Assembly (NCBI GenBank): GCA_028686425.1 | Contig: JAQUBZ010000018.1 | Location: forward strand, 1-45,639 | DNA: 45,639 bases | Reading direction: 5' to 3' | DNA from: Bacteroidales bacterium | Lineage (GTDB): Bacteria > Bacteroidota > Bacteroidia > Bacteroidales > UBA932 | Shown here: positions 30,018 through 44,270 of the stretch, in pieces | Layout: each line of letters opens with the position of its first letter | Numbering within the stretch: position 1 is the first letter of the stretch | The notes under the pieces: generated by a model | Databases searched by the model: none | What the model saw: only the letters and a program-made list of their open reading frames with translations | Told to the model about the DNA's origin: nothing | Position numbers and translations under genes: made by a program

Positions 30018-30019
30018 TT

Positions 30020-31168
30020 ATGGTAATAACAATTATTGAATGGGTGATTTTTGGCCTGCTGTGTATGCCTGTGGCTTATCTGCTGTTTTTTGCGATAGCA
30101 TCCAAATTGCCGCTTCACAAAAAAAGAAACGAGGCGACAGAAAAAAATATTCTGGTGCTTTTTCCTGCCTATAAGGAGGATTTGGTAATAGAGGACTCGG
30201 TCAAATCTGTGTTGAATCAACAATACAGTCGCAGTATGTACGAGATAGTTGTGATTGCAGACAAATTGTCCCAATCTACAGTGGAAAAGTTGCGTGAGGT
30301 TGGAGCTGCTGTACTTGATGTTAATTTTGAAAACAGCTCAAAAGCCAAAGCGCTCAACTTTGCAATGTCTCAAATAGCAGGTCCGTTTGATATAGTTGTC
30401 ATTTTAGATGCAGACAATATTGTAAAACCGGACTTCTTGCGCAGGATAAATAACTCATTTTCAGGAGGTATTAAGGCTGTTCAGGCGCATAGAACGGCTA
30501 AAAATATGAATACCGATATTGCCGTGCTTGATGCAATCAGTGAAGAGATGAGCAACTCCATGTTGAGGAAGGGGCATAATGTTGCAGGGCTCTCGTCAGC
30601 TCTTATTGGATCGGGAATGGCATTTGACTATCAGTGGTTTAAAGATAATGTCGGATCTTTGACCTCAGCCGGTGAAGACAAGGAGCTTGAAAAGTTGCTT
30701 CTTAAACAAAATATATTTATAGAATACCTGCCTGATGTTGATGTACTTGATGAAAAAATTCAGAGCGGAAAGGGGTTTTACAGCCAGCGGAGAAGGTGGA
30801 TTTCGGCTCAATTTTATTCAATGATCGAATCCGTCAGAGATTTTCCGTCGGCGGTCAGACAACGGAACATCAATTATTGCGACAAGCTCTTTCAGTGGAT
30901 GATGCTTCCCCGTGTCCTTCTGCTTGGGATAATCATTGTGATTACCGCTGCTTCTTTCTGTACGATATATATCGGTTCGATTAAATGGTGCATTCTGCTG
31001 TTTTCCATTATTACTGCCTTCTTTTTAGCAATACCGAACTATCTTCTTAATTTTAAATTGCTTAAAGCTTTTTTGAAACTTCCGGTTGTATTTTTTATGA
31101 TGGCCCTCAATCTTCTCAGAATAAAAGGTTCGAGAAATAAATTTTATCATACGGACCACAAAATGTAG
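30020..31168 (+). CDS. Membrane glycosyltransferase family 2 with QRRRW-type motif
   Basis: This 382-residue GT2 has one N-terminal membrane helix (about 3-27) and three or four near the C-terminus (about 295-365). Motifs: VLFPAYKEDLVIEDSV, IVVIADKLS, ILDADNIV as the DxD site, GSGMAFDYQWF, GEDKELEKLLL as the catalytic acidic region, and YSQRRRWISAQ, matching the Q(Q/R)xRW signature of synthase-like GT2 enzymes. It is therefore a candidate processive or polymer-forming transferase facing the cytoplasm. It is the last transferase of the plus-strand run; ugd follows after 48 bp with a possible own promoter. Confidence 0.88.
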   Translation: MVITIIEWVIFGLLCMPVAYLLFFAIASKLPLHKKRNEATEKNILVLFPAYKEDLVIEDSVKSVLNQQYSRSMYEIVVIADKLSQSTVEKLREVGAAVLDVNFENSSKAKALNFAMSQIAGPFDIVVILDADNIVKPDFLRRINNSFSGGIKAVQAHRTAKNMNTDIAVLDAISEEMSNSMLRKGHNVAGLSSALIGSGMAFDYQWFKDNVGSLTSAGEDKELEKLLLKQNIFIEYLPDVDVLDEKIQSGKGFYSQRRRWISAQFYSMIESVRDFPSAVRQRNINYCDKLFQWMMLPRVLLLGIIIVITAASFCTIYIGSIKWCILLFSIITAFFLAIPNYLLNFKLLKAFLKLPVVFFMMALNLLRIKGSRNKFYHTDHKM

Positions 31169-31186
31169 TTTTTTCTTTTTTTTAGT

Positions 31187-31194
31187 TAAATTTG
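31187..31194 (+). promoter_or_regulatory. Possible -7 box upstream of ugd
   Basis: TAAATTTG matches the TAnnTTTG consensus 22 bp before the ugd ATG. The base composition around it is extremely A/T-rich and no TTTG stands at the -33 distance, so it may be chance. If real, ugd has an internal promoter. Confidence 0.35.
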
Positions 31195-31216
31195 TAAAAT
31201 TTGAAATAATAAAAAT

Positions 31217-32533
31217 ATGAAAGTTCTAATTGTAGGCACGGGCTATGTCGGACTTGTAACCGGTGCATGTTTTTCGGAAATGGGCATTGATGTAAGATGT
31301 GTGGATGTAAATAAACAGAAAATAGAGGATTTGAATAATGGCATTATGCCAATCTATGAAAGGGGATTGGAGGAGTTGGTTATCAGAAATCATGCTGCCG
31401 GCAGACTCGGATTTTCAACTGATATAGATGCTTCTGTAAAGATTGCCGACATTATTTTCAGCGCAGTGGGTACTCCTCCCGACGAAGATGGAAGTGCCGA
31501 TTTGTCATACGTATTGGATGTAGCCCGTACTATCGGACGCAATATTTCAAAATATACCCTGGTTGTGACTAAAAGCACGGTTCCTGTGGGAACGGCTGAA
31601 AAAGTTCGCAGGGCCATACAGGAAGAGTTGGACAAACGTGGAGCAAAAGTCACCTTTGATGTCGCTTCAAACCCGGAATTTCTGAAAGAGGGGAATGCTA
31701 TCGAAGACTTCATGAAGCCGGACAGAATAGTTGTCGGAGTTGGAAGTGAGAAGGCTAAAAAAATCATGGAAAGGCTCTACAAGCCCTTTATGATTAACAA
31801 TTATAGAATTATTTTTACCGATGTGCCTTCAGCCGAGATGATTAAATATGCGGCAAATGCAATGCTTGCGACACGTATCTCTTTTATCAACGATATAGCA
31901 AACTTGTGCGAAATAGTTGGCGCAGACGTCAATATGGTTCGCAAAGGCATAGGAACCGACAACAGAATCGGAAGCAAATTTCTATATCCCGGCTGTGGAT
32001 ACGGAGGAAGCTGTTTTCCGAAGGATGTAAAGGCATTAATTAAAACAGCACAGCAGAATGGTTACAAGATGAAAGTTCTACAGGCGGTCGAGAGTGTGAA
32101 TGAGCGTCAGAAGTCGATTGTTTTCGACAAGATAAGCCGACATTTTGATGGAAATCTGAAAGGTAAAAAGATTGCAGTATGGGGGCTTGCATTCAAACCT
32201 GAGACCGATGATATGAGAGAAGCGCCTGCAGTAGTAGTGATTGACCTGCTGCTTAAAGCTGGCTGTTCCGTAGTTGCTTACGACCCGATTGCCATGCCTG
32301 AGGCAAAACGCAGAATGGGTGATGCCATAACATATTGCAAAGATAAATATCAGGCTTTGGAAGGGGCTGACGCCATGTTGCTTATGACTGAATGGAAGGA
32401 GTTCAGAATTTTGAATTTTCAGGAAATGAAGTCTAAAATGAATCAATGCGTAATTGTCGATGGGAGAAATATTTACGACAAAGAAGAAATGAAAGATAAC
32501 GGATTTGTGTACCACGCGATAGGCATAAATTAA
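31217..32533 (+). CDS. ugd: UDP-glucose 6-dehydrogenase
   Basis: Ugd oxidises UDP-Glc to UDP-GlcA with two NAD+. The 438-residue protein has normal length and all three domains: the NAD-binding KVLIVGTGYVGLVTGACF, the middle KSTVPVGTAEKVR and NPEFLKEGNAI, the catalytic cysteine C266 in GYGGSCFPKD, and the UDP-binding C-terminus with WGLAFKPETDDMREAP. It closes the plus-strand exopolysaccharide run. Its product is the substrate of the UXS encoded at 9743-10687, so UDP-GlcA and UDP-Xyl can both be made from this region. Confidence 0.95.
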   Translation: MKVLIVGTGYVGLVTGACFSEMGIDVRCVDVNKQKIEDLNNGIMPIYERGLEELVIRNHAAGRLGFSTDIDASVKIADIIFSAVGTPPDEDGSADLSYVLDVARTIGRNISKYTLVVTKSTVPVGTAEKVRRAIQEELDKRGAKVTFDVASNPEFLKEGNAIEDFMKPDRIVVGVGSEKAKKIMERLYKPFMINNYRIIFTDVPSAEMIKYAANAMLATRISFINDIANLCEIVGADVNMVRKGIGTDNRIGSKFLYPGCGYGGSCFPKDVKALIKTAQQNGYKMKVLQAVESVNERQKSIVFDKISRHFDGNLKGKKIAVWGLAFKPETDDMREAPAVVVIDLLLKAGCSVVAYDPIAMPEAKRRMGDAITYCKDKYQALEGADAMLLMTEWKEFRILNFQEMKSKMNQCVIVDGRNIYDKEEMKDNGFVYHAIGIN

Positions 32534-32587: not shown

Positions 32588-33880
32588 ATGAAAAGGTTTA
32601 CACAAGTAGCACTGGTCCTTGGCATCATAATGATGTGTGCTAGCCCAATAGAGGTGTGGGGACAAAATAGAAGAACTGGTAATTCAAGCGAAAGTAAAAC
32701 CGAACAAAGAAGCAGCAACTCTTCTTCAAGAAGTTCAAGCCAAAGGTCTGCAAGCGTAAAGAAATCTGACGACAATCAGATGAAAGCAGCACCTCAGACA
32801 AGGAACTCTTCAGAATCAAGACGTGTGACCTCACCTTCAAGGTCTTCTTCTACACCGGCACGTCAGGTGCAGGATTATAGGAAGTCAACTACCTCACGAA
32901 CAAGCAGAAGTGTTTCGACTGCACCAAGCCGCAATGCCGACAGAAGCGGTGTTTCGACTGCACCGAGCCGCAATGCCGACAGAAGGGGTGTTTCGACCGC
33001 ACCGAGCCGCAGCACAGATAGAAATGTTTCGACCGCGCCAAGTCGCAGTGCCAACAGAACGGGAGTAAACAGTGGCAGACCAAATAATTCGTCTGACAGG
33101 AATGCCGTTACTCCAAGTCGGAGCGCAGGTAACAATAGGACCGACAGACCGGATGCCAACACTTCTTCTTCGCGCAGACCGGCAAATGTTCCTAATAAAG
33201 ATGTGAGCCACAGACCTTCCAATGATGGAAGACCTAATGCTTTGCAATATCACAATTCGGCACCTGCTCCAAGGGAGAATTGGAAAAGACCTTATTTACA
33301 GGATCATCACAAACCGGCTCCACCTCACAGATACGGGGACCATAATTTCGGATACAGATGTAATTACCTGCCTCACGGGGCAAGAATGAGAATGTATAAC
33401 AATATTCGTTATTATTATTACGATGGCATATATTACCGTCCGTACTATATGGGAGGTTATGTAGTATGCCGTCCGCCTATCGGAACATACTACTCAAATA
33501 CAATGTTGAATATTGCACTGACAGCAGCCGTAATCAATGCATATAATGATGCGGCAAGGAGAGCAGAGCAGGCTGTCGCTATAGCAAGAGCATATTCCGA
33601 TTATGATAATCGCTATCAGGTTAGAAATATTGACGATTATGTGACCAATATAGCAAGTCAGAATGATCAATATTATTATCAGGATGGAGTATTCTATACC
33701 CTTAGGAATGGGCAATATTACGTTATTGAACCTCCTGTGGGTGCACTGATTACCCAGTTGCCTGAAGATTATGAAGAGATAGAACTCAATGGAGATACTT
33801 ACTATCAGGTTGAGAATGCACTATATAAGGTTACGGTAATTGACGGAGCTTTGTACTTTGAAGTTGTCTGCGCGTTATAG
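32588..33880 (+). CDS. Secreted DUF6515 protein with Ser/Arg-rich tandem repeats
   Basis: The 430-residue protein starts with a signal peptide (MKRFTQVALVLGIIMMCASP, likely cut after VWGQ or nearby). Residues ~25-240 are low complexity, rich in Ser, Arg, Asn, Pro and Thr, and include a block of four 12-13-residue repeats of the type VSTAPSRNADRxG. The C-terminal ~180 residues match DUF6515: a Tyr-rich IRYYYYDGIYYRPY, GYVVCRPPIGTYY, and later QYYYQDGVFYTL, VIEPPVGALITQLPEDYE. The family is exported and uncharacterised. The basic, flexible stretch could bind acidic polysaccharide (inference). It lies 54 bp after ugd. Only 2 bp separate its stop from that of the convergent MBOAT gene. Confidence 0.82.
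   Translation: MKRFTQVALVLGIIMMCASPIEVWGQNRRTGNSSESKTEQRSSNSSSRSSSQRSASVKKSDDNQMKAAPQTRNSSESRRVTSPSRSSSTPARQVQDYRKSTTSRTSRSVSTAPSRNADRSGVSTAPSRNADRRGVSTAPSRSTDRNVSTAPSRSANRTGVNSGRPNNSSDRNAVTPSRSAGNNRTDRPDANTSSSRRPANVPNKDVSHRPSNDGRPNALQYHNSAPAPRENWKRPYLQDHHKPAPPHRYGDHNFGYRCNYLPHGARMRMYNNIRYYYYDGIYYRPYYMGGYVVCRPPIGTYYSNTMLNIALTAAVINAYNDAARRAEQAVAIARAYSDYDNRYQVRNIDDYVTNIASQNDQYYYQDGVFYTLRNGQYYVIEPPVGALITQLPEDYEEIELNGDTYYQVENALYKVTVIDGALYFEVVCAL
32911..33060 (+). repeat. Tandem 36-39-bp coding repeat
   Basis: Four head-to-tail units begin with TGTTTCGACT or TGTTTCGACC at 32911, 32950, 32989 and 33025, with periods of 39, 39 and 36 bp. The first two units are nearly identical, which suggests recent duplication. 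All changes keep the reading frame. The copy number is a likely site of variation between strains. Confidence 0.85.
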
Positions 33881-33882
33881 AA

Positions 33883-35253
33883 TTAGAACTGAAAATATAT
33901 AAACGGCAGAAATTCTTTAGATCCGATCCAGACGGTCAATGCGATGAGAATGCAGTAAGATATTATTCTCAGGCAACAGTTGGGATTGTCTAATAAGTTG
34001 AATTGTTGAGGGTAGTATTCGCGCCTTATCTCGAATATAAGCAGCAGAAGAGTCGCTGCAAGGGCTGAGACAAATGATGGAGATAAAGAATATACCACTT
34101 CCGGAGAAGTGACACCGATAAACAAGTTTTCTATCATGCCGATTGCATCATGCAGGGAGGCTGATCTGAAAAATATAAAAGAAAAACAGACAATAAGGTA
34201 TGTTGTAACAATTCTGATTGCGCAATATATCTTATTGTTTTTTAATGAATGTTGCTTCTCAAATTTCTTTCTTCTTTTCTGAAAAATGATAGACAAACTG
34301 ATTGCAATACTGTGTATTACTCCGAATATAAGGTAGTTAATTGTACCTCCGTGCCATACTCCGACAAGAATAAAGATAAAGCCGCTCGCGAGAGCAAGTC
34401 CGTATATTCCCCAATCTCTCAAAATAATGGACAGAGGACTGAATACATAGTCCGTCATCCAGTTTGTGAGAGAGATATGCCACCTTCTCCAAAAAGCAGG
34501 GATATTTTCCGAGAAAAAAGGCCTGTTGAAATTGTCGGCTATTTTGAATCCAAGTAAATTGGCACACCCGACGGCCATAAGAGAGTATCCCAAAAAGTCG
34601 GTGTAGATTTGCACAGGGTAGAGGAGTGCGGTAATCCATGCAGTCCCGACCCCTAACTCTCCGGCATTTGAAAAGGATGGAGAGAGGACAGCCGAGAGAT
34701 TATCGGCAATCACAAGTTTCAGAAACAATCCTGTAATCAGCTTTCTGATACCACTCTCAACCATTAATCGCGAGACCTTTGTCCCCGAATTTAACTGAGG
34801 CAGTAATTCCGATCCTTTTTGGATGGGCCCTGACAAAATGGTAGGAAAAAATGAAACGAACAAGGCGTATTTAGCAAAGTCGCTTTCACTTTTCAGTAAT
34901 GTTTTATTGTAAATATCAAGCATATAACCGATAGATTGGAACATATAGAAAGACATTCCTATCGGCAGGATGACGGCAGGATGGTTTGGTATTATATGAA
35001 AGATAGTTTGAAATTTAAAAAAGAACAAAATCCCGAAATTAAGCACGAGGCAGGAGTAAAGCGCCCACCTCTTTTTGCTTTTAGATTCGGCCGATTCAAT
35101 AAGTTTTGCTGCGAAAAATGTAGTGATGGTCGATAACAAAAGAAAAACTGCATATCCCCCTGCAATATAACAGTAGAAAGCATAACTGATAATAAGCAAC
35201 AGATAAATCCTGATTTTAGACGGATTCAAGTAACTTGATATTGGCATAATCAT
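33883..35253 (-). CDS. MBOAT family membrane-bound O-acyltransferase
   Basis: The 456-residue, multi-pass protein belongs to the AlgI/DltB-type MBOAT family, which moves acyl groups to extracytoplasmic glycans. Visible features are FFKFQTIFHIIP, the conserved SFYMFQSIGYMLDIYN segment, SGPIQKGSELLPQL, RRWHISLTNWMTDYVFSPL, and the catalytic-region His in LVGVWHGGTINYLIFGVIHS. An overlap of 4 bp with the SDR gene (ATGA) makes it the last gene of the acyl-carrier cassette. DltB takes its acyl group from the carrier protein DltC, so here an ACP-bound acyl group is the likely donor (inference). No periplasmic AlgJ/AlgX-like partner is found nearby. Confidence 0.9.
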   Translation of the reverse strand: MIMPISSYLNPSKIRIYLLLIISYAFYCYIAGGYAVFLLLSTITTFFAAKLIESAESKSKKRWALYSCLVLNFGILFFFKFQTIFHIIPNHPAVILPIGMSFYMFQSIGYMLDIYNKTLLKSESDFAKYALFVSFFPTILSGPIQKGSELLPQLNSGTKVSRLMVESGIRKLITGLFLKLVIADNLSAVLSPSFSNAGELGVGTAWITALLYPVQIYTDFLGYSLMAVGCANLLGFKIADNFNRPFFSENIPAFWRRWHISLTNWMTDYVFSPLSIILRDWGIYGLALASGFIFILVGVWHGGTINYLIFGVIHSIAISLSIIFQKRRKKFEKQHSLKNNKIYCAIRIVTTYLIVCFSFIFFRSASLHDAIGMIENLFIGVTSPEVVYSLSPSFVSALAATLLLLIFEIRREYYPQQFNLLDNPNCCLRIISYCILIALTVWIGSKEFLPFIYFQF

Positions 35254-35897
35254 TTCATTTTGATCAGATCAATGACTTTTTGAGCCACTTCCTCAGTAGT
35301 AGTCACTTCTCCCATCATCCGTTCATCAATATCGGCAGTCAGGCCGGTCTTCATAAATGGAGGACATATTGTATCGCAATAGATATTGTACTTGGAATTT
35401 TCTTTCTGCCACGATTTGCACATTGATTGCAGGTATGCCTTGTTGGCAAGATATTCTGAGGCTCCGATGATAGGCTCATCATACAGGGCTTTGGTCAGAA
35501 TAGTGATAATCTGTCCCGATTTCTTGTTTCTGAACAGATTTATTACTTGCCGGGTAATATGCAATACCGGAAATATGTTAATGTAAAAGCTTGTTTTATA
35601 GTCTTCTATGTTACTTTTATGAAAATAGTATTTGATAAATCTGCCGGTATAGGCATTATTAATCAAAAGGTCGAGATTCATTTTGTCAATACTTCTTGTA
35701 AGAGAGTTAAGGTCTTCTGTCTGGTTAAAATCACACTTGATGGCATCTGTATTGCTTGGAAACATGGAGAGAATCTCTTTTGCCGATTTCTCGGAATGGG
35801 CATAAGTGAAAAATACCATATTGTCTTTGTTTGAAGCCAATGCCAATGTGATGGATTTGCCTAAACCTGAAGAACCGCCTGTAATTAATACATTCAT
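35250..35897 (-). CDS. Short-chain dehydrogenase/reductase
   Basis: The 215-residue classical SDR has the cofactor motif TGGSSGLGKS (about 6-15), a central NNAY in place of NNAG, and the catalytic YxxxK as YLANK around 166-170. The position usually held by the catalytic Ser reads Thr (ILTKAL), which may still support hydride transfer. With MaoC-like and ACP neighbours the natural role is a keto/hydroxy-acyl reduction on a carrier-bound chain, as in FabG-type steps; this is inference. It overlaps the MaoC gene by 1 bp and the MBOAT gene by 4 bp. Confidence 0.85.
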   Translation of the reverse strand: MNVLITGGSSGLGKSITLALASNKDNMVFFTYAHSEKSAKEILSMFPSNTDAIKCDFNQTEDLNSLTRSIDKMNLDLLINNAYTGRFIKYYFHKSNIEDYKTSFYINIFPVLHITRQVINLFRNKKSGQIITILTKALYDEPIIGASEYLANKAYLQSMCKSWQKENSKYNIYCDTICPPFMKTGLTADIDERMMGEVTTTEEVAQKVIDLIKMK

Positions 35898-36295
35898 TAT
35901 AATACTCCTATTTGGAAGCAGCCTTTTGCCACTTTTTTGTTTAGTTCATTTCTGAATATGAAGTCAAATGTTACCGCATTGACACTTTCGTGAATACTAT
36001 CGACTTTTGCCTCAAATGTAAGAATGTCTCCCATATAGACAGGGCCACTGAAATTTATCTCCTGAGAGTGAATAATTACGTTTTTGGAAGGAAGGCACTC
36101 TCCGATGAAGTACGATATGAATCCATTCAAAATATTACCATGCATGACTATATCCTTAAATCCCATGCTTGTTGCATAATCTTTGTCCGTATGCAACGGA
36201 TTTCTGTCTTCAAATGTCCGGATAAATCCTTGATAAACACTTGAAGTAACAATAAATTTGCGGGTAAATATTTCACCTGTCGAAAATGGCATCAT
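35897..36295 (-). CDS. MaoC-like (R)-specific hydratase/dehydratase
   Basis: The 132-residue hotdog-fold protein has the MaoC hydratase motif FEDRNPLHTDKDYATSMGF, with Asp 30 and His 35 as the expected catalytic pair, followed by IVMHGNIL. Family members hydrate enoyl-CoA/ACP or dehydrate 3-hydroxyacyl thioesters. It shares 4 bp with the upstream ACP gene and 1 bp with the SDR gene, so the three are translated together. It probably acts on the ACP-bound intermediate of this cassette. Confidence 0.88.
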   Translation of the reverse strand: MMPFSTGEIFTRKFIVTSSVYQGFIRTFEDRNPLHTDKDYATSMGFKDIVMHGNILNGFISYFIGECLPSKNVIIHSQEINFSGPVYMGDILTFEAKVDSIHESVNAVTFDFIFRNELNKKVAKGCFQIGVL

Positions 36296-36546
36296 ATTGC
36301 AGTCTTGCTTTTATTGATAATGGCCTCTATCATTTCTCCTACATTTGACCACGAACGTATCTCCTGAGCAGTAAATTTTAATTTAAAATGCTTCTCTATT
36401 GCAACCACAAGCTGTATGTGAGTCAGAGAATCCCAATCTTCAATGTCGTCAGATGTGGTTTCGGTAGTTAATACAATTGCGTCATTATCAAGTACATCGA
36501 TAAAAATTTCATTTATTTCCTTTAAAATAATTTCTGCATCTGTCAT
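36292..36546 (-). CDS. Acyl carrier protein (second ACP of the cassette)
   Basis: The 84-residue acidic protein is an ACP: the phosphopantetheine site is Ser 40 in EDWDSLTHIQLVVAIEKHF, with helices before and after it as in the family. It differs clearly from the second ACP at 38272-38508, so the pair is not a recent duplication. Its 5' end overlaps the FkbH-like gene by 38 bp; its 3' end overlaps MaoC by 4 bp. It should carry the acyl chain on a 4'-phosphopantetheine arm. No PPTase is encoded in the window. Confidence 0.92.
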   Translation of the reverse strand: MTDAEIILKEINEIFIDVLDNDAIVLTTETTSDDIEDWDSLTHIQLVVAIEKHFKLKFTAQEIRSWSNVGEMIEAIINKSKTAI

Positions 36547-38269
36547 AGTAATTCTGATTTATGTAACATTTTCTATTAATATAATTTTTGGTTTCGAGTG
36601 ACCACAATCCATCTTTTTCGACAAATCCCAACTCCTTGTAATGGTCTTTTACAAGGCCGTTTTTGGCTGTCGGAATATATTTTCCCGTCACAACCTTGTA
36701 TTTGTGGGAGGAGGCATACGCCATAATGGTATTTAATACGAAATTTTCCATTCCGCGCTTGAGCACTCTGCAACTCATAATCCATGTTTCAATATACAAT
36801 TCGTCAGTATTTACGGTTTTGAGAATCACCACGGCTATCAATCCATTATCTCCGTATTTGTCATCAAGAGTGAATGTAAATGGTACATACTCACGCGATT
36901 GACTAATCTTTTCAATATCGGACTCACTGTACCTGATGGTTGTGAGATTGAATTGGTTGGAGCGTTGCGAAAGCTGAGCCACCCTTGGTATATTGTATTG
37001 ATTGAAAGGGGCAACTTGAGATACCATTTCAAGACTTGCAAGATAGTCATCTTCATTTGTAAACTTGTCACGATTTTGAACCCTTTGCGCCTCGACTTGA
37101 TATTGTTTTGTCCTTTCTCCATCTTCCGCCGAATGAGATACTGTTTCAAACAGATTCAGTTCATATAGATATTCGAGATAATCAGAAGGATCTTCGGGAA
37201 GTTCCGGCACACATATTTCCGGTATATTGGCTCTGACAATATTTCTTTCAAACGGATTGTCGTCCAAAAATACCATTGAATCAAATCCAATATTCAGAAT
37301 CCGCTGAATATATCTGATATTGTCCGCCTTATTGTTCCAGTTGGCAACAAATACAGCTATATCTTCCATCCTCAATACCATGTCAGGATGAGATATAAAC
37401 GGCTCTTTTGCAATTTCCTCTGTGTTTTTACTGCAAATGGCGACAATGATGCCTCTTTCTTTCAGCTTTTTAATCCAATGCTGAAACTCGGTGAAGGCCT
37501 TGCCTATTCCGAGATGTCCGATTTGAATCTTTTCAATACCGTCATCACCTATAATTCCACCCCACAGAGTGTTGTCTAAGTCGAGAATAATACATTTTTT
37601 GAGCATTCCCTGTGCGGCGCAAATAATGTCAACCGTACACTTGGCAACAAAAGGGAGGGCTTCAATGCTTATGAGCATATCGGCATTTATATATGTCGAA
37701 GTGGAGAAGAAGGTTTTTTTGCCTAAATTATTCTGGATACTTGAAATATCACCTATATAACACCCCTTTCTTTTGGAAATATTCTCCATCAGCATCATAT
37801 TGAGCCGCCTTAACTGAAATATGAAAGAGGATTCTGTAATTGTTGAGTAATTGCCGAATACGTAATCGTTTATCTCGTTGAAGTTATATATGATGATTTT
37901 GGAAAAGATATTGCTTTGCAGGGTGGATATAAGATTGTCAATATAATCAGCCTGCTTCATAACAAACATACTTCTCTCTTCAACTTTCGTATTATTGTAA
38001 AGTTGAAGCAGTTTGTGTGAAGATATATAGATGAGTGTATAATCGGGATTATATTGATATAGTTCGGAGCCGGGATTTAATATCTGGCTATCTATCTGAT
38101 TATAATCGGATTCCCGAATTTCTATGTTCAGGCCTACTTCATATCCGTACCCTCTGACGGCCTGAGTTAAAAATTGCGTAGCACTATCGCCAAGTATTGA
38201 TAATTTGATTTGTTTGTACTTGCCGAAATCTTTTTTCAGATTCTTTTTTAACTGAAGAAATTCAATCAT
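36509..38269 (-). CDS. FkbH-like HAD-IIIC protein with N-terminal SGNH-like region and C-terminal GNAT-like domain
   Basis: FkbH-type enzymes dephosphorylate 1,3-bisphosphoglycerate-derived glyceryl and load it on an ACP. This 586-residue protein keeps the HAD motifs: DLDNTLWGG with D230/D232, CSKN with Ser 280, and FLDDNPFER with D336/D337. A Cys (C226) stands just before motif I. The N-terminal ~210 residues carry a GDS motif (27-29) like an SGNH fold but no clear catalytic His. The C-terminal ~170 residues look like a GNAT fold (TFTLDDKYGDNGLIAVV, HYKELGFVE). ACP genes flank it on both sides (2-bp gap upstream, 38-bp overlap downstream), which supports ACP loading; glyceryl is family knowledge, not shown here. 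Confidence 0.88.
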   Translation of the reverse strand: MIEFLQLKKNLKKDFGKYKQIKLSILGDSATQFLTQAVRGYGYEVGLNIEIRESDYNQIDSQILNPGSELYQYNPDYTLIYISSHKLLQLYNNTKVEERSMFVMKQADYIDNLISTLQSNIFSKIIIYNFNEINDYVFGNYSTITESSFIFQLRRLNMMLMENISKRKGCYIGDISSIQNNLGKKTFFSTSTYINADMLISIEALPFVAKCTVDIICAAQGMLKKCIILDLDNTLWGGIIGDDGIEKIQIGHLGIGKAFTEFQHWIKKLKERGIIVAICSKNTEEIAKEPFISHPDMVLRMEDIAVFVANWNNKADNIRYIQRILNIGFDSMVFLDDNPFERNIVRANIPEICVPELPEDPSDYLEYLYELNLFETVSHSAEDGERTKQYQVEAQRVQNRDKFTNEDDYLASLEMVSQVAPFNQYNIPRVAQLSQRSNQFNLTTIRYSESDIEKISQSREYVPFTFTLDDKYGDNGLIAVVILKTVNTDELYIETWIMSCRVLKRGMENFVLNTIMAYASSHKYKVVTGKYIPTAKNGLVKDHYKELGFVEKDGLWSLETKNYINRKCYINQNYYDRCRNYFKGNK

Positions 38270-38271
38270 TT

Positions 38272-38508
38272 CTATTGTGACCGTTGTTGTATTATTTCAT
38301 ATACTTCACGAATATTTCCGGCTCCCCTCAAATCTCCACCCAGAAGTCTTACCCCGCATTTTTTTCCAATCATATTGATGATAGACACAGCTGTAAGCGA
38401 ATCCCACCCTTCAATATCTTTAAAGTTAGTGTCTGCTTTGAACTGAGATACGTCTGCATCTTCAAACTGATTTGCAAATTCAACTATAAATTCTTCCAAT
38501 GTCATCAT
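38272..38508 (-). CDS. Acyl carrier protein (first ACP of the cassette)
   Basis: This 78-residue protein has the phosphopantetheine attachment site Ser 37 in EGWDSLTAVSIINMI and the typical helix pattern. The GGDLRGAGNIREVYEII ending is ACP-like. It starts with two consecutive Met codons; either is possible. It overlaps the acyltransferase gene by 4 bp and lies 2 bp before the FkbH-like gene, so it is the most likely acceptor of the FkbH-loaded group. An ACP dedicated to this route, separate from the fatty-acid one, is the simplest reading. Confidence 0.92.
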   Translation of the reverse strand: MMTLEEFIVEFANQFEDADVSQFKADTNFKDIEGWDSLTAVSIINMIGKKCGVRLLGGDLRGAGNIREVYEIIQQRSQ

Positions 38509-39113
38509 TTTACCCTTTCTCCTGTTTTTAGATTAAAAATTACCTTTGCCGGATTACCGGCTACAAGCGAGTATGGCGGGATACTTGTCCTTACCACACT
38601 CCCTGCCGAAATAAAACAATGTGTTCCTATTTTTACTCCGGCGCAAATTATGGAATTTGCCCCGATTAGAACATCATCTTCAATAACTATCGGGTCAGAA
38701 TAAGCCCCTTGTAAATCTATGGGGATGTCTATGGCTTCATAATTGTGATTCAGACCCGAAAGGAGGCAATGCTGTCCGGTAGAAACATAATTTCCGATAA
38801 TAGTCTCCCCGAGAACCACCGTTCCTATTCCTATTCTGCTGTGGTCTCCAATAATTATTTGGCCCATCGCATTGTTTAAAGTCGCATTCTGCTCTACTAT
38901 TGATTTATATCCAATAACAAAAGGATGATATGGGTATAAATCCCTTCTTGCCTTTCGCGAAATGTAGGCTCCCTTTTTCTTTTTGATTAAAAACGGCATA
39001 AGCAGATTTCTCACCCACCATCTCGGTCTTGTACGTGGATGTTCTATCAATTTGTGCACCTTTTCTTTCATATCGGGGTGCGCTTTAAGCCATTTGTATA
39101 TCTTATCAATCAT
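38505..39113 (-). CDS. Hexapeptide-repeat (left-handed beta-helix) acyltransferase
   Basis: The 202-residue protein has a basic N-terminal region (about 1-65) and then hexapeptide repeats: IIIGDHSRIGIGTVVLGETIIGNYVS, and later IVIEDDVLIGANSIICAGVKIG followed by SLVAGNPAKVIF. The loop GLNHNYEAID supplies a candidate catalytic His. Family members (WcaF, NeuD and similar) transfer acetyl or other acyl groups from CoA or ACP to sugars. It overlaps the first ACP gene by 4 bp. It may acylate a sugar nucleotide in the cytoplasm while MBOAT works outside (inference). Confidence 0.87.
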   Translation of the reverse strand: MIDKIYKWLKAHPDMKEKVHKLIEHPRTRPRWWVRNLLMPFLIKKKKGAYISRKARRDLYPYHPFVIGYKSIVEQNATLNNAMGQIIIGDHSRIGIGTVVLGETIIGNYVSTGQHCLLSGLNHNYEAIDIPIDLQGAYSDPIVIEDDVLIGANSIICAGVKIGTHCFISAGSVVRTSIPPYSLVAGNPAKVIFNLKTGERVK

Positions 39114-39127
39114 GGTACAATCTCTAT

Positions 39128-39592
39128 TTAAGCAGGAATAATCTTAAACCTGACTCTCCACCTGCCATCGACATAATCGCTCGAAGTGATAGTAAATGCT
39201 CCTATTTCCGAAGTATTGGAGACGTGGTTGCCGATACATGCGCAAGCATCATAATCACCTATTCTGACTATTCTCAGGGTATCAGATACGTTTTCCGGAA
39301 GTTTTCTCAAATCTACATAACCGGAAGCCTCCTCTTTGGTCATAAATGAAATATTGACAGGCAGATGCATCGCAATCACCTCATTTACCCTCGACTCAAT
39401 ATCTTTAATTTGGATGTCATCGGGAGCGCTTTCAAGCAGATAGTCGCATTTGCACTTTTTCTTCTCAATATGAGCATTCATCGAACGCGGACAACCGAAC
39501 ATACGCACCATCGTCTGATTTAAAATATGTTCCGCAGTATGACAAGGAGGATATTCTTCCTTGTTATGGGCATTTAATACAGGATCTTCCAT
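39128..39592 (-). CDS. AlaX-like stand-alone tRNA-editing domain protein
   Basis: The 154-residue protein resembles the second additional domain of alanyl/threonyl-tRNA synthetases, found free-standing as AlaX. The zinc and catalytic motifs are present: HTAEH (His 18, His 22) and CIGNH (Cys 119, His 123) where AlaX has CxxxH. AlaX removes Ser or Gly wrongly attached to tRNA-Ala. It overlaps the histidine kinase stop by 29 bp and precedes the acyltransferase by 14 bp, an odd setting for a quality-control gene. A different hydrolase use within the acyl cassette cannot be excluded. Confidence 0.82.
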   Translation of the reverse strand: MEDPVLNAHNKEEYPPCHTAEHILNQTMVRMFGCPRSMNAHIEKKKCKCDYLLESAPDDIQIKDIESRVNEVIAMHLPVNISFMTKEEASGYVDLRKLPENVSDTLRIVRIGDYDACACIGNHVSNTSEIGAFTITSSDYVDGRWRVRFKIIPA

Positions 39593-41276
39593 AACAATTA
39601 TTATTTACAAGAGGAATGGAGAAGGAGAATGTGCTCCCTTTTCCCACCTCGGATCTTACTTCAATAGTACCGTTCAGTAGTTGCAAAAGTCCCTTTACAA
39701 TACTTAGGCCAAGGCCTACGCCATCTTTTGAACTTGTATAATTAACTTGGGAGAAGCGCTCAAATATCTGCTTTTGTTTCTCATGAGGGATACCGATTCC
39801 GGTATCTGTCACATAAAAATTAAGAATGTCGTCATATACATTTGCATTAAATTCTATATACCCTTTGGCTGTATATTTCAACGCATTTTTAATTAAGTTA
39901 TAGATACAGGAAGTAACCTTGTCCTTGTCCGAATTAATCATAGTTTCGGCAGGCGTATTGTTGAATCTTAATGACAATCCGCGTTCCTCCGCTTCAAGCC
40001 TGAACACATCGTAGCTGTCGCGCATAAGTTCATTGATGTCAAATTCCGAAATGGAAACAGCCATTTGTTTCGACTCAATCTTGGATATGCAGATAATATC
40101 GTTGATCAGTTCGAGCAGTCTGTGCCCGTTTCTTTCCACTATTGTGATATAACTCAAATTATCACTATCATTTTTCTCCTCAAATTCATTCATCATAATA
40201 TCTGAAAATCCTATAATGGCATTGAGGGGAGTTCTGATTTCATGGCTGATATTGGCAAGAAAGGCGGATTTGAGCTTGTCGTTCTCTTCTGCCTTTTCTC
40301 TGGCTGCAATCAACTCTTTCTGATATGTCTTGGAAAGGGTAATATCGTGCAATGTGCCGATTATTTCGTCAGGCTCTCCGTTATGATTGCGGATAAGCGA
40401 GTATGATGCCTTTATCCATTTGATAGTGTTGTCTTTCGTGAGTATTTCGTATTCTGTGGAGATGAAATCATGGCCGGATACTTCCGATTCTAACAGATTG
40501 TTGACAAGATCAAATGAAAACTCTCTATATTGTGGCAACATGATGGACAATTGATCACTGCTGCTCATTTGAAGACATTCGGCTTGAGAATATCCAAGTA
40601 CGCTCGTAATGGTCGGACTCATATATTTGATTCGTCTTGTAACGATGTCCTGGTAAAAGAAAACATCGGAAGAGCGTTCAACTATCTGCCTGAATTGGGT
40701 TTCACTCTTGATAGCCTTCTCTGTCTCCTTCCTCAACTGATTTTCGAGCTTTTTCTGAATAGAGATATCAATAATTGCCAGACGATAGAAATGGGATTGA
40801 GGATGACTTGTCGCGTCAATTCTGACATAAATATCACTTTTTCTGTGAGAACGCATCCTAAGATCAACTTGGGCGAACATTTCTCCCTTTTGCAAAAGTT
40901 TGAAGAAGTGATAATAATTATCCGTAAATAATGGAGAGATAAAATTTTGAATAGGTACTCCTATGATTTCTTCTTTTAATAAGAGCAGCAATTTGGCAAA
41001 AGTATTATTGGTATTGACAATATTTTGGTCTTTGTCGAGAATAATATGCCCAACAGGAGCATTATCAAATAAATCGGCATATTCGTCAGACTTTCTTTGA
41101 ACTTCAGCCTGAGCTCTTTCAAGCTCTTCATTCTGATATTCAAGTTCAATCTGATGAATAGACAATTCCTCAATAAGTTTCTTTATATCGTTCCCCCACT
41201 GTGAAACATTAACCTTTCCTTTTTTTGAAAGAGTTTCGAGAGCTTTTGATCGTAAATCTGAAAAATCCGAATCCAT
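39564..41276 (-). CDS. PAS-PAS sensor histidine kinase
   Basis: The 570-residue protein has no membrane segment. A coiled coil (about 30-65) leads into a first PAS (65-175: DLFDNAPVGHIILDKDQNIV), a second PAS (about 190-320: DVFFYQDIVTRRIKYMSPTITSVLGY), and a kinase core with His 345 in LANISHEIRTPLNAIIGFS, YNLIKNALKYTA, DTGIGIPHEKQ, and GVGLGLSIVKGL. The PAS domains may bind a small ligand or redox cofactor. It lies 21 bp after the CheB-CheR-PAS gene, a common partner for such kinases. It has no receiver domain and no output regulator adjacent. Confidence 0.9.
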   Translation of the reverse strand: MDSDFSDLRSKALETLSKKGKVNVSQWGNDIKKLIEELSIHQIELEYQNEELERAQAEVQRKSDEYADLFDNAPVGHIILDKDQNIVNTNNTFAKLLLLLKEEIIGVPIQNFISPLFTDNYYHFFKLLQKGEMFAQVDLRMRSHRKSDIYVRIDATSHPQSHFYRLAIIDISIQKKLENQLRKETEKAIKSETQFRQIVERSSDVFFYQDIVTRRIKYMSPTITSVLGYSQAECLQMSSSDQLSIMLPQYREFSFDLVNNLLESEVSGHDFISTEYEILTKDNTIKWIKASYSLIRNHNGEPDEIIGTLHDITLSKTYQKELIAAREKAEENDKLKSAFLANISHEIRTPLNAIIGFSDIMMNEFEEKNDSDNLSYITIVERNGHRLLELINDIICISKIESKQMAVSISEFDINELMRDSYDVFRLEAEERGLSLRFNNTPAETMINSDKDKVTSCIYNLIKNALKYTAKGYIEFNANVYDDILNFYVTDTGIGIPHEKQKQIFERFSQVNYTSSKDGVGLGLSIVKGLLQLLNGTIEVRSEVGKGSTFSFSIPLVNNNCYGRSCIKCP

Positions 41277-41297
41277 AAAGTCATTAATTCATCTGGT

Positions 41298-44270
41298 TTA
41301 TCTCTCTTTTTCTCTGCTTATATTCATTATAATACCTGAAAATCTGATGGGTTTGCCAATCTGATTTGTCAAAACTACGCCACCTTTATCTCGGCAATAG
41401 ATATAATTGCCTTTCTTGGTCTTCAGTCGGTATTCACAATTATAGCGCTCCGATTTGCCGGACAGACAATTGCTGATTGCTTCATTTCTTGCATCCCTGT
41501 CGTCAGGATGTACTATCATGTTCCATTTTTCGGAAGTTATGCCGATTTCATTCTCCCTGTAACCAAGGATGGCCATGATAGATTGCCCCGTGGCGATAAT
41601 ATCCTTCTCAATATCCCATTCCCACCAGAAAATTTCACCGAGACTGAAAGTCTTGGAAAGTCGTTCGGATATGGCAAGAACCTCGCTTTGGGCCCTCTTG
41701 AGGCCTGAAATATCTACGAATGTGATAATTATGCCATCAACTGCGTTGTCTTTTGTCCTATAAGGCATTACTCTCATGAAATACCACTTCTGCTCCGTAA
41801 AATGAATTTCTTTTTCAACAGGCTCCAATGTATCTGACACTTTCTCAATATCATTCAAGAATCCCGGATACATTGACTTTAGAGCAAGATGCTGAATAGG
41901 TCTTCCAATATCACTTGCAAGGACATTTGTAATCTGCGTTGCTACCTCACTTACTTTTCTGATAACCAGATTCTTGTCCAAGAATAAGTTGCCGATATAC
42001 GTGTTTTTCAGTAAGTTGTCATAATCGGAATTAAGTTCTGTCAGCTCTTCAATCTTTCGGATGTGCTCAGAGTTTACGGTATAAAGCTCTTCGTTGACGG
42101 ACTGCAACTCTTCATTGGTACTTTGCAACTCTTCGTTTGAGGCAATCAGCTCTTCATTACTTGATTGCAACTCCTCATTACTTGTCTCCAACTCTTCTAC
42201 GGTAGCTTGCAGACTTTCATTCTTGTGCTGTATTTCTCTTTCGAGTTCATCAATTCGTTCCTGATACTGAGTGTTGATATCCAATGAAATATTCTTCGGA
42301 GATTCCTTGTCTCCCTTGATTATGACAGGTCTTTCTTCAAAAGATACGAGATAATAAGGAAAGTCATAGTCATCGCCTGAGAATTTGTGACAAGTCACGG
42401 TGAGTTCGACAGGGGTTCCATCTGAAATATTTGCTGTCGTCAGATCGGCACCTATAACTCCGTCTTCTTTTTTATCCGATCTTCTGATAACGCTGCTGAC
42501 TATTACCGATGCATCTTTTTGCAACATTTTAAGAAGATTGGTGGTAATCTGCCCTTTAGGCAACTGCAGATATTTACCGACATCGTGTATGGTATATAGG
42601 ACATTGCATTGCGCATCAACTATTACAGAAGGAGGCAGAAATGCCTGAGCTACATCTTCAAAAAATGAATTTAATTGTTTGCTCCCCGATTTCAACAGAT
42701 TGGTGGCACTCTGAGCATGCATCATTTCTGATCTGTTGCGATGCAGCGGAGTATTCAGTGAGGAAATAGGGAGAAATTCAGGTTTGTATCTGTTCCTTTT
42801 TCTGAATAGTTTGGATTTGCTGTCGATGATGTCGAAACCTTCGGCAAGCTTGCCGAGAGACTCGCTTGATCCGAGGAACATATATCCGTCATTCTTCAAA
42901 CATACATGGAATGTCCCGAGAATCTTCTGCTGTACATCAATATTTAGATAAATCAACAAGTTACGGCAGGATATAAGATCAAGCTTTGAGAAAGGAGGCT
43001 CATCAATGATGTTGTGTCTTGCAAAAATAATCATTCTGCGGATGTTGTCATTAATCTGATAACCTGCATCTTTCCGTATAAAATGCTTTGCAAGAATATT
43101 GCCTGGGACATCTGCCGTGATATTGCTCGGGTACAATCCCGTACCGGCATAAGCAAGAGACTCTTCATCAATATCTGTCGCAAATATTTTAATATCCTTG
43201 ATGACATTATTTTTTGTCATGTATTCCTTAAACAGAATAGCTAAAGTATATGCTTCTTCACCTGTCGAACATGCAGGACACCAAATTCTGATTTCACTTT
43301 TGTCGGAGTGTTGTTCAAATATATCCGGAATAACTGCGGATGCCAACATCTCAAAGGCTTTTTCATCTCTGAAAAATCTCGTAACTCCAATCAGCATATC
43401 ATTGAACAATGCCGAAATCTCTTTTGGGGTGATGGTCAGATATGAGACGTAGTCCGTTACCTTTTCAAATCTGTTGATACTGATACGTTTCTCAAGTCGC
43501 CTGATAAGAGTATTCTGTTTGTAGTTTGAGAAATCGACATTCTTGGCATCATGTAAGGTGGCAATAATTTTATTAAAAACACTCTGGTTTTGAAGTAATT
43601 GAGACTCTATGGCAATGTTTTTATTGATAAAAGGATGCTTTATATAATTGGCAAGCTCCTCTGCAAGGAGTGAAGGAGAAAGGACCAAATCGACCATTCC
43701 CGTCGAGATGGAACTGCGAGGCATGCCGTCAAATTTGGCAGTCTGGTCATCCTGAACCATTGTCATGCCTCCGTTCTCCTTAATGGCTCTGATACCGAGA
43801 GTACCGTCCGATCCTGTCCCTGAAAGGATAATGCCGATTGCATTATTTTCCTGGTCGGCGGCAAGAGAACGGAAGAATATATCGATAGGCAGGTTGAGCG
43901 CTCTCCCCTCGATTTCTTTCAAATGCAACTTCCCTCCGGCTATCGTCATATTCATTTTTGGAGGAATAAGGTAGATGTGGTCGATTTCGATTGTAACATT
44001 GTCTGTAACAATATCAATTGGAATCGAAGTGTGTCTTGCCAGCAACTCTCCCATAAAACTCTTGTAATCGGGAGAGAGGTGCTGGACAATTACAAAAGCC
44101 GCCCCGGGAGAGGAAGGCATTCCGTCAAAAAATTCCTGAAGTGCTTCCAGACCGCCGGCCGAAGCCCCTATACCCACTATAGGAAAACCATCTTTCTTCG
44201 GTTTCTCGAAAGTAATAGCTTTTTTGGCGGTTTTTGTTGTGCCGGATTTGTCTTTCTTTTGTGTTGCCAT
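41298..44270 (-). CDS. CheB-CheR-PAS fusion protein
   Basis: This 990-residue protein joins a CheB methylesterase domain (about 28-215) with its catalytic triad (Ser 37 in GASAGG, His 64 in VQHLSPD, Asp 155 in GTGSDGTLG), without a receiver, to a CheR methyltransferase (about 225-490) with [10 protein letters not shown] and the SAM-binding [19 protein letters not shown] coiled coil of repeated SNEELQS units (about 665-740) and two PAS-like domains (about 745-860 and 870-985) follow. No chemoreceptor, CheA or flagellar gene is present, so its methylation target is unknown. A perfect -7 box lies upstream, and it heads the minus-strand run to 33883. Confidence 0.92.

Follow-up and report, generated by a model that had tools for sequence, protein, structure and literature searches.

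In the Dlt system (DltA-DltC-DltB-DltX-DltD), a dedicated loader, a D-Ala ligase, is combined with a small carrier protein and an MBOAT protein, and the shuttle tyrosine is found on DltX. In PatA and DltX, the motif FXYXXF is described as shuttling the acyl group on its tyrosine, and excerpts of the same 2025 PatA/PatB paper present the MBOAT/SGNH pathways other than Dlt as lacking a carrier protein and evidently using acyl-CoA (PMC12148441). FkbH-like proteins are known from another context: together with an ACP, they are proposed to make or carry glycerate bound to ACP in the pathways to tetronates and methoxymalonyl units (passages of PMC7489565), and the tetronate scheme is given as confirmed by partial reconstitution in part of a review (PMC4979870). 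Such polyketide modules use two dehydrogenases or a FabH-like cyclase. In Campylobacter jejuni, the FkbH-domain gene cj1302 lies in the flagellar glycosylation region, with MBOAT unmentioned in the sections concerned (PMC7099621).

A locus combining elements of these systems was analysed in a 45,639-nucleotide stretch of a Bacteroidales genome (hereafter, the window). Seven intact ORFs occupy positions 33883-39113 of its minus strand, each overlapping the next or at most 2 bp apart, exactly as the initial annotation had described, and all the families that it had named were matched by Pfam/NCBIfam models. In 5' to 3' order, the genes encode a left-handed beta-helix (LbH, hexapeptide) acyltransferase of 202 aa (38505..39113), ACP1 of 78 aa (38272..38508; DSL serine Ser37, 38398-38400), an FkbH (HAD-IIIC) protein of 586 aa (36509..38269) presumed to be the glyceryl loader of ACP2, ACP2 of 84 aa (36292..36546; DSL serine Ser40, 36427-36429), a MaoC hot-dog dehydratase/hydratase of 132 aa (35897..36295), a FabG-like SDR of 215 aa (35250..35897) and an MBOAT protein of 456 aa (33883..35253). 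Overlaps of 4 bp were found for LbH/ACP1, ACP2/MaoC and SDR/MBOAT, of 38 bp for FkbH/ACP2 and of 1 bp for MaoC/SDR, with a 2-bp gap between ACP1 and FkbH. No ketosynthase, ligase or PPTase was matched by Pfam/NCBIfam within the seven genes, in agreement with the initial reading, and the genome has a single PPTase match (PF01648), on contig C34.

Tail to tail with the MBOAT gene lies a plus-strand gene for a repeat-rich DUF6515 protein (32588..33880), and beyond it the end of a plus-strand exopolysaccharide cluster (27667..32533) encoding a Wzy-like protein, two glycosyltransferases and a UDP-sugar dehydrogenase, as named from their translations. This cluster is likely the acceptor pathway. In another species of the genus (G035), FkbH-ACP-MaoC-SDR-MBOAT stand in the same order as in the window, beside an exopolysaccharide cluster of the same gene order, with a DUF6515 homologue in the same place; its FkbH gene is cut by the contig start, and its ACP2, MaoC, SDR and MBOAT genes are open and collinear with those of the window. 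On the upstream side, the co-directional run does not stop at the hexapeptide gene, being continued on the minus strand by an AlaX-like gene after a 14-bp gap (39128-39592), a PAS histidine kinase gene overlapping the latter by 29 bp (39564-41276) and, 21 bp further, a gene for a CheB/CheR-like-PAS protein, also named from its translation (41298-44270). These three genes (39128..44270) possibly belong to the same transcription unit as the cassette.

The FkbH protein matched FkbH_N with 218 bits and TIGR01686 with 298 bits, above the curated cut-off of 147, and contains the DxDxT motif of HAD enzymes, which places it in the family. It keeps D230-x-D232-x-T234, C226, D336-D337 and C500, all conserved in at least 95% of 38 MBOAT-linked FkbH proteins (window included), its residues 3-380 match 3slr (BF1531; E 6e-133), and it is the only FkbH match in this genome. 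Both ACPs matched PP-binding PF00550 (26.5 and 26.1 bits, cut-off 20.8) and both contain the DSL serine. ACP2 scored highest with ACPs that are partners of FkbH (signature xWDSLTHIQLVVAIEKHF), whereas ACP1 was closest to ACPs located beside FabH/SDR in MBOAT-free FkbH loci (L065, L138, L122, L066 and L128), some of which also hold LbH. Therefore, of the single unit initially proposed, the overlapping and abutting run of genes stands, but a division of the seven genes into two modules fits better. The LbH protein matched Hexapep with 59 bits, and across the ORFs of the retrieved loci and the window, 10 of 32 LbH matches directly adjoin an ACP gene; one further case is a true ACP-LbH fusion of 293 aa (L087). 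ACP1 and the hexapeptide transferase would make up the second of these modules, apparently a cytoplasmic one that would acylate a sugar precursor.

The MBOAT protein matched PF03062 with 86 bits (cut-off 27) and is similar to DltB in sequence searches (1e-29); its predicted model (pLDDT 73, below 50 for residues 443-456) has DltB as its best PDB fold (8jem/6bug, E 1e-13). The WHG histidine is kept (His301, 34351-34353) and the C-terminus reads FIYFQF (Tyr453, 33895-33897), which fits the FXYXXF motif, so that fold, catalytic His and C-terminal motif are those of an MBOAT-SGNH system. On the DltB equivalog TIGR04091, the protein reached 197 bits against a cut-off of 375, and four MBOATs with no FkbH linkage scored 161-174, alike to the linked ones. 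As scores on the DltB model do not separate linked from unlinked MBOATs, closeness to DltB is not specific.

The recurrence of the gene set was assessed in 68 FkbH loci (the window among them) that had 3 kb or more of flanking sequence on each side, counting as neighbours genes on the same strand within 4 kb. MBOAT was present in 32 loci, ACP in 54 and SGNH in 33; SGNH accompanied MBOAT in 30 of the 32 MBOAT loci (Fisher p 2e-13), the exceptions being the window and L064. Thus, the FkbH-ACP-MBOAT linkage, which the initial annotation had proposed to search for, is found elsewhere. In the order sample alone, MBOAT lay beside FkbH in 12/26 loci, for a chance level roughly estimated at 1-2% even with 8 MBOATs per genome. 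A later sample, outside profile building, contained FkbH, ACP, MBOAT and SGNH together in 4/16 loci, one of them with MaoC and an SDR-sized gene in between, and MBOAT was absent from two of its five new loci at 50% identity or more. The recurring gene order is FkbH-ACP-MaoC-SDR-MBOAT-SGNH, and the first five genes follow one another in L056, L085, L086, L094 and L099, all from Bacteroidota; because this order recurs in these loci and in G035, the linkage of the cassette is more than chance. Regardless of order, the five genes were found near FkbH on one strand in the window, L048, L053, L056, L064, L085, L086, L087, L094 and L099 among the 68 loci, and also in G035. The set, for which the initial annotation knew of no described pathway, therefore has relatives in other bacteria, and a literature search found no paper describing it. 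In nine of the 68 loci, ACP, MBOAT and SGNH lie beside FkbH and no further tailoring gene was called (in L067, LbH is 1.8 kb away), which implies that the FkbH product can pass straight to MBOAT, and in other loci a methyltransferase and/or a VOC protein replaces MaoC and SDR. On the other hand, 36 of the 68 loci have no MBOAT, so FkbH alone does not imply export.

As the FkbH-ACP-MBOAT linkage recurs, mostly with SGNH, these four components match DltA, DltC, DltB and DltD in role. The cassette shares with Dlt a dedicated loader and a carrier protein (ACP2, with its DSL serine) co-encoded with an MBOAT, plus an SGNH protein in most relatives, but its loader is FkbH instead of a D-Ala ligase, the MBOAT itself carries the shuttle tyrosine, which in Dlt resides on DltX, and tailoring enzymes stand between loader and MBOAT; neither a DltA amino-acid ligase nor a separate DltX (ORFs of at least 60 aa) is among the seven genes. 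The Dlt-like pathway suggested at the outset is thus supported as regards these roles, but not as regards closeness to DltB as such. The C-terminal FXYXXF and the SGNH partner of most relatives are shared with PatA-PatB/AlgI-type acetylation, from which the cassette differs in co-encoding an ACP and a presumed loader. With the polyketide modules it shares an FkbH-family protein and a stand-alone ACP, but it has MaoC and SDR and no PKS, and the consumer appears to be a membrane acyltransferase. The methoxymalonyl-ACP pathway requires two dehydrogenases and an O-methyltransferase, and the seven genes include one SDR, one MaoC and no methyltransferase. The Campylobacter region also has FkbH in a surface-glycan locus. 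We regard it as evenly balanced whether the cassette is a Dlt-like system that acylates the surface by way of a carrier protein and draws on glycolysis, and consider it somewhat probable that ACP2 feeds the MBOAT with a glycerate-derived acyl group.

The MaoC and SDR proteins matched PF01575 (40 bits) and PF00106 (103 bits), respectively. The presumed active-site D30 and H35 of MaoC are intact, this D and H being invariant in 15 aligned sequences (window included), as are TGGxxGLG, NNA and YxxxK of the SDR, whose C-terminus is about 25 aa shorter than in most homologues. In cleaned profiles of the 68 full-flank loci, MaoC occurred with SDR in 11 of 13 MaoC loci (p 1.3e-6) and with MBOAT also in 11 of 13 (p 0.004). 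On the FkbH tree, the MaoC+SDR label was distributed nearly at random (14 rows with 11 changes, compared with a mean of 13.2 after shuffling): the loader changes little and the tailoring pair is exchanged, which would be expected if they act on glyceryl-ACP, a weak point being that all loci were chosen by FkbH. MaoC and SDR probably reduce the glycerate-derived acyl group. FkbH would take the glyceryl group of 1,3-bisphosphoglycerate, remove the phosphate and load the phosphopantetheine of ACP2; MaoC would dehydrate glyceryl-ACP2 through loss of the 3-OH to 2-hydroxyacryloyl-ACP, i.e. pyruvyl-ACP, and SDR would reduce this to lactyl-ACP2. The MBOAT, acting through His301, would then transfer the acyl group over the inner membrane to Tyr453 in its C-terminal FIYFQF, and an SGNH transferase supplied in trans would pass it from this tyrosine to the exopolysaccharide of the neighbouring cluster. 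That the group on ACP2 and MBOAT is lactyl is a possibility short of even, resting on enzyme chemistry; bryostatin is a precedent for it, which our literature look-ups did not confirm. It is somewhat unlikely that glycerate is exported unreduced or otherwise, with MaoC and SDR acting differently (oxidation towards hydroxymalonyl, or as hydratase/epimerase) and a glyceryl, pyruvyl or other C3 acyl decoration: a dehydratase has no role in an oxidation route and the 3-OH of a glyceryl thioester is where a MaoC fold would naturally act, although the nine minimal loci presumably export glyceryl itself and the methoxymalonyl pathway, in the passages concerned, oxidises glyceryl-ACP (PMC7489565).

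Alternatively, the MBOAT could be an ordinary acetyl-CoA O-acetyltransferase of AlgI/PatA type, with FkbH, ACPs, MaoC and SDR supplying the hexapeptide transferase with an acyl group for N- or O-acylation of a cytoplasmic nucleotide sugar. MBOATs are common in the order (167/198 genomes, up to 8 per genome) and score alike on the DltB model whether linked or not, MBOAT-free FkbH loci with ACP and LbH exist (L045, L061, L066, L095, L120 and L128) besides the ACP-LbH fusion, and cj1302 sits in a flagellar glycosylation region (parts of PMC7099621). In contrast, the nine minimal loci offer FkbH only ACP, MBOAT and SGNH among the tailoring classes sought, and FabH-bearing FkbH loci, with their clear second acyl route, have MBOAT in 0/6 cases (p 0.026). 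Moreover, in a tree of 81 MBOATs those beside FkbH cluster strongly (4 label changes vs. 27.2 by shuffling), a comparison biased by the fact that 29 of the 39 unlinked MBOATs were the highest-scoring matches; the window and G035 sequences share a long branch of their own, whose placement within the linked clade is not resolved. None of 29 few-kb MBOAT loci retrieved by the order search contained an ACP. We regard this alternative as unlikely.

Quite unlikely is an acyl group of fatty-acid origin, in which MaoC and SDR would provide a short acyl group of the 3-hydroxyacyl or enoyl kind (such as 3-hydroxybutyryl) for export by the MBOAT. Both enzymes resemble 3-hydroxyacyl dehydratases and FabG, and LbH could use such a group, but the cassette lacks a ketosynthase, and other tailoring genes take the place of MaoC and SDR next to a constant FkbH and ACP, weak as this is for loci chosen by FkbH; FabH and MaoC occurred together in 0/13 MaoC loci, which is not significant (p 0.59).

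The window copy is unusual: SGNH is missing beside it, the N-terminus of its MBOAT falls about 35 aa short of that in G035, and its SDR is short. The 286 window ORFs of 40 aa or more include no member of the usual SGNH partner group, a lack that the initial annotation had overlooked, and the only relatives of this group in the genome (C50:15312-16028 and C32:3-272) lie beside another, split MBOAT. DltD PF04914 had no match in the genome, nor had AlgX PF16822, for which the control was also without a match; the predicted SGNH structure of L094 reached DltD at E 1.1e-3. Other GDSL-type enzymes are encoded on C34 and C16. A decaying remnant that no longer decorates anything, having lost SGNH, the MBOAT N-terminal helix and the SDR C-terminus, would fit these absences and the single other close MBOAT homologue in the genus (G035, 59%; next 38%; 40 genomes, many incomplete), but is improbable, since all seven frames are open and tightly overlapping with catalytic residues kept, and the G035 copy (open and collinear apart from its contig-cut FkbH; dN 0.10-0.38 where dS was saturated and not computable) also lacks adjacent SGNH and has a short SDR (213 aa), so both changes are old and tolerated.

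Returning to carrier-dependent export, we tentatively propose a widespread, undescribed class of carrier-protein-dependent MBOATs that would divert 1,3-bisphosphoglycerate into surface-glycan esters with exchangeable tailoring: glyceryl with none, lactyl with MaoC and SDR, and O-methylated or epimerised glyceryl with a methyltransferase and/or VOC protein, the window version having its shuttle tyrosine on the MBOAT, a further module of ACP and hexapeptide transferase, and SGNH in trans. The loci point to a broad exception to the carrier-free, acyl-CoA-using pathways of the PatA/PatB paper, mostly seen in Bacteroidota, in which a carrier protein and a presumed loader lie beside MBOATs with a fused shuttle tyrosine. 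If this is right, gene content alone would predict which C3 acyl groups (glyceryl, lactyl or methyl-glyceryl) surface glycans bear, and surface decoration would be tied to glycolysis; in the window's host, O-lactylation of the sugar coat would come at a cost to glycolytic flux.

The seven minus-strand ORFs at 33883-39113 form a tight unit in which neighbours overlap or lie at most 2 bp apart, as the initial annotation had proposed, and all the gene families that it had named were recovered with Pfam/NCBIfam. From 5' to 3' the cassette encodes a hexapeptide acyltransferase (LbH), ACP1, an FkbH-like protein, ACP2, MaoC, an SDR and an MBOAT protein. Both ACPs carry an intact DSL serine at the presumed catalytic position, FkbH keeps DxDxT and two conserved cysteines, the presumed catalytic D30/H35 of MaoC and the TGGxxGLG and YxxxK motifs of the SDR are intact, and MBOAT has both WHG and a C-terminal FIYFQF. 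The cassette lacks a ketosynthase, and polyketide or fatty-acid synthesis was rejected. A recent horizontal import was likewise rejected on base composition, as the GC gap (0.379 in the cassette vs. 0.400 in the window) is too small to support more than "slightly A+T-rich".

Upstream on the same strand, genes for an AlaX-like editing-domain protein, a PAS histidine kinase and a CheB/CheR-like-PAS protein (39128-44270; gaps of 14, -29 and 21 bp) nearly abut the cassette, making a regulatory link possible. Downstream, a DUF6515 gene (32588-33880), lying tail to tail with the cassette, separates it from an exopolysaccharide cluster; its product carries tandem SVSTAPSRNADR-like repeats and has a homologue at the equivalent position in G035, a second species of the genus. 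The promoter and terminator scan gave 30 and 6 candidates, respectively, little above the 22.4 (sd 5.2) and 4.3 (sd 1.9) of shuffled sequence, so that the operon boundary could not be drawn.

To place the cassette among related systems, 40 fetched neighbourhoods, 55 named loci and the window were reduced to 87 loci by excluding duplicates (L084, L098 and L100, copies of L058, L062 and L054) and loci with an FkbH below 450 aa (L047, L073, L074, L076, L077 and L106). Of these, 68 had at least 3 kb on each side, the other 19 falling short on one side. Within 4 kb on the same strand of these 68 FkbH genes, ACP was found in 54 loci, SGNH, the usual transferase partner of MBOAT, in 33, MBOAT in 32, VOC in 21, LbH in 14, methyltransferase in 12 and FabH in 6; SDR and MaoC, whose profiles cross-hit, were found in 18 and 13 after profile cleaning (20 and 15 before), which left MBOAT, SGNH and ACP unchanged. 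As the 55 named loci were chosen by resemblance to the FkbH of the window, the sample from the order Bacteroidales (n = 26) gives the less biased figure, with ACP in 20, MBOAT and SGNH in 12 each and MaoC in 5. In a later sample, independent of profile building and comprising 16 of the 30 phylum-search genomes (the source genome, one genome already included and the 12 weakest matches being left out), FkbH, ACP, MBOAT and SGNH occurred together in 4 of 16 (L204, L205, L208 and L209), and in one of these ACP and MBOAT flank MaoC and a gene of SDR size.

SGNH lay beside MBOAT in 30 of the 32 MBOAT loci, the exceptions being L064 and the window. MaoC and SDR accompanied MBOAT in 10 (L048, L053, L056, L064, L085, L086, L087, L094, L099 and the window), with the exact order FkbH-ACP-MaoC-SDR-MBOAT-SGNH in L056, L085, L086, L094 and L099. 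Nine others had a methyltransferase and/or VOC without MaoC, nine had ACP, MBOAT and SGNH alone beside FkbH, one (L132) combined MaoC with a distant methyltransferase, and three had MBOAT and SGNH with no ACP called by the gene caller. The order FkbH-methyltransferase-ACP-VOC-MBOAT-SGNH was seen in L058 and L089 and, with the ACP uncalled, in L119, and in L097, of the methyltransferase/VOC type, MBOAT and SGNH precede FkbH. A possible role for the VOC protein is that of an epimerase at the alpha carbon of glyceryl-ACP. Related gene sets are present in cultivable environmental bacteria such as Mucilaginibacter sp. SG564 (L089) and Algibacter pectinivorans (L107).

FabH-bearing FkbH loci were devoid of MBOAT (0 of 6, p 0.026). 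A second FkbH type (L065, L066, L122, L128, L137, L138, L210 and L211) has FabH, mostly with ACP, SDR and LbH, and no MBOAT; its FkbH proteins are mostly shorter (524-533 aa), those of L210 and L211 being longer. Such loci perhaps make extended acyl groups for N-acylated sugars.

The initial annotation had also assigned all seven genes to one pathway, and this part of the proposal was weakened by the affinities of the two carrier proteins. The best matches of ACP2 among the fetched loci were FkbH-partner ACPs, the first 13 at 99-108 bits, with a signature common to both, whereas ACP1 grouped with ACPs adjoining FabH/SDR (44-68 bits vs. L065, L138, L122, L066 and L128; at most 30 vs. others). 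An LbH gene directly adjoined an ACP in 10 of 32 LbH matches, the window counted; 16 LbH/ACP pairs had been flagged, among them five short "fused" ones (195-236 aa), which stem from a contaminated profile and were excluded as artefacts. From this score pattern and the recurrent adjacency or fusion, LbH and ACP1 are more likely to act as their own cytoplasmic module for acylation than to belong to the export route. Within an FkbH-MaoC-SDR-(ACP-LbH)-MBOAT-SGNH locus, the 293-aa ORF L087:11836-12717 is a fusion of an ACP of the FkbH-partner type with a hexapeptide acyltransferase, which suggests that hexapeptide transferases may draw on carriers of that type as well.

In a tree of 81 MBOATs, the label "beside FkbH" required 4 changes vs. 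27.2 when shuffled, a figure to be read with the bias that PF03062 matches with the highest scores make up 29 of the 39 unlinked rows; L141 (one of 30 loci of the order) and the MBOAT on contig C50 of the source genome (L002) have no ORF above 350 aa and are omitted. The label "MBOAT beside" was clustered as well in a FastTree phylogeny of FkbH with 87 rows (13 changes vs. 28.5 shuffled), whereas the MaoC plus SDR label, carried by 14 rows, was distributed almost at random (11 changes vs. 13.2; 20 of 500 shuffles as low). We therefore read the loading step as apparently constant and the tailoring as exchangeable. Likeness to DltB was discarded as evidence, since unlinked MBOATs match the DltB model equally well; the model of the window MBOAT matches DltB at E 1e-13 with pLDDT 73, its C-terminal motif being below 50.

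Within this family the window copy is an unusual member. Its MBOAT and the G035 homologue stand on their own long branch outside the resolved linked clade, and elsewhere in a set of 40 genomes of the genus MBOATs reach at most 38% identity to the window protein. The G035 locus encodes FkbH (truncated by the contig start), ACP2, MaoC, SDR and MBOAT and, like the window, no SGNH. All nine genes called there are one-to-one and collinear with the window at 55-77% identity, the window MBOAT being some 35 N-terminal residues shorter. For the five cassette genes dN was 0.10-0.38 with dS saturated and not computable, which speaks for a retained function. Across relatives, order and phylum, the distribution of FkbH is patchy: it occurs in 4 of 61 close relatives (source genome counted), the family model matched 39 of 393 genomes of the order at E 1e-3 (31 above the model cut-off), and the window protein matched in 30 of 395 genomes of the phylum.

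No SGNH partner was found within the window and no DltD in the source genome (2.22 Mb in 51 contigs, the window being contig C7); AlgX gave no match there, but neither did the search control. GDSL-type matches were detected on contigs C34 and C16. Two lines of evidence underlie the SGNH label: an alignment of 13 members shows a G-x-S block and an invariant His, motifs from which two small clusters (c12 and c15) were also assigned to it, and the model of the L094 protein (pLDDT 78) had mostly SGNH/GDSL enzymes as best PDB matches (E 1.6e-5), with designed scaffolds also in the top rows and DltD at E 1.1e-3. A second MBOAT of the source genome consists of overlapping ORFs of 205 and 271 aa, broken up by either a frameshift or a misassembly. 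The SGNH gene that follows it (both within C50:13865-16090) runs off the contig end, and its C-terminal part opens C32 (C32:3-275), beside SDR-like sugar-nucleotide genes; C50 and C32 (L172 and L173 among the loci) are probably neighbouring contigs.

As regards the chemistry, MaoC would remove the 3-OH of glyceryl-ACP to give pyruvyl-ACP in its enol form, which the FabG-like SDR would reduce to lactyl-ACP, a route that we infer from enzyme chemistry. A similar proposal has reportedly been made for the bryostatin loading module. Neither a precedent for this route, bryostatin included, nor a described FkbH-MBOAT system was found in PMC, and gellan glyceryl genes and a paper for the locus tag BF1531 were likewise sought there without success; as most subscription papers are missing from PMC, these absences weigh little. 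The solved structure PDB 3slr ("uncharacterized protein BF1531") is closely homologous to the window FkbH over its N-terminal two thirds (E 6e-133). The MBOAT step would follow PatA and DltB/DltX, for which a catalytic His and an acyl-tyrosine within FXYXXF are described (PMC12148441).

Judged by architecture, the predicted Dlt-like function is well supported. According to the same paper, non-Dlt MBOAT/SGNH pathways have no carrier protein and evidently use acyl-CoA (PMC12148441), whereas the FkbH loci described here are candidate exceptions to this carrier-free rule. The predicted system is best filed as a variant of carrier-dependent MBOAT acylation.
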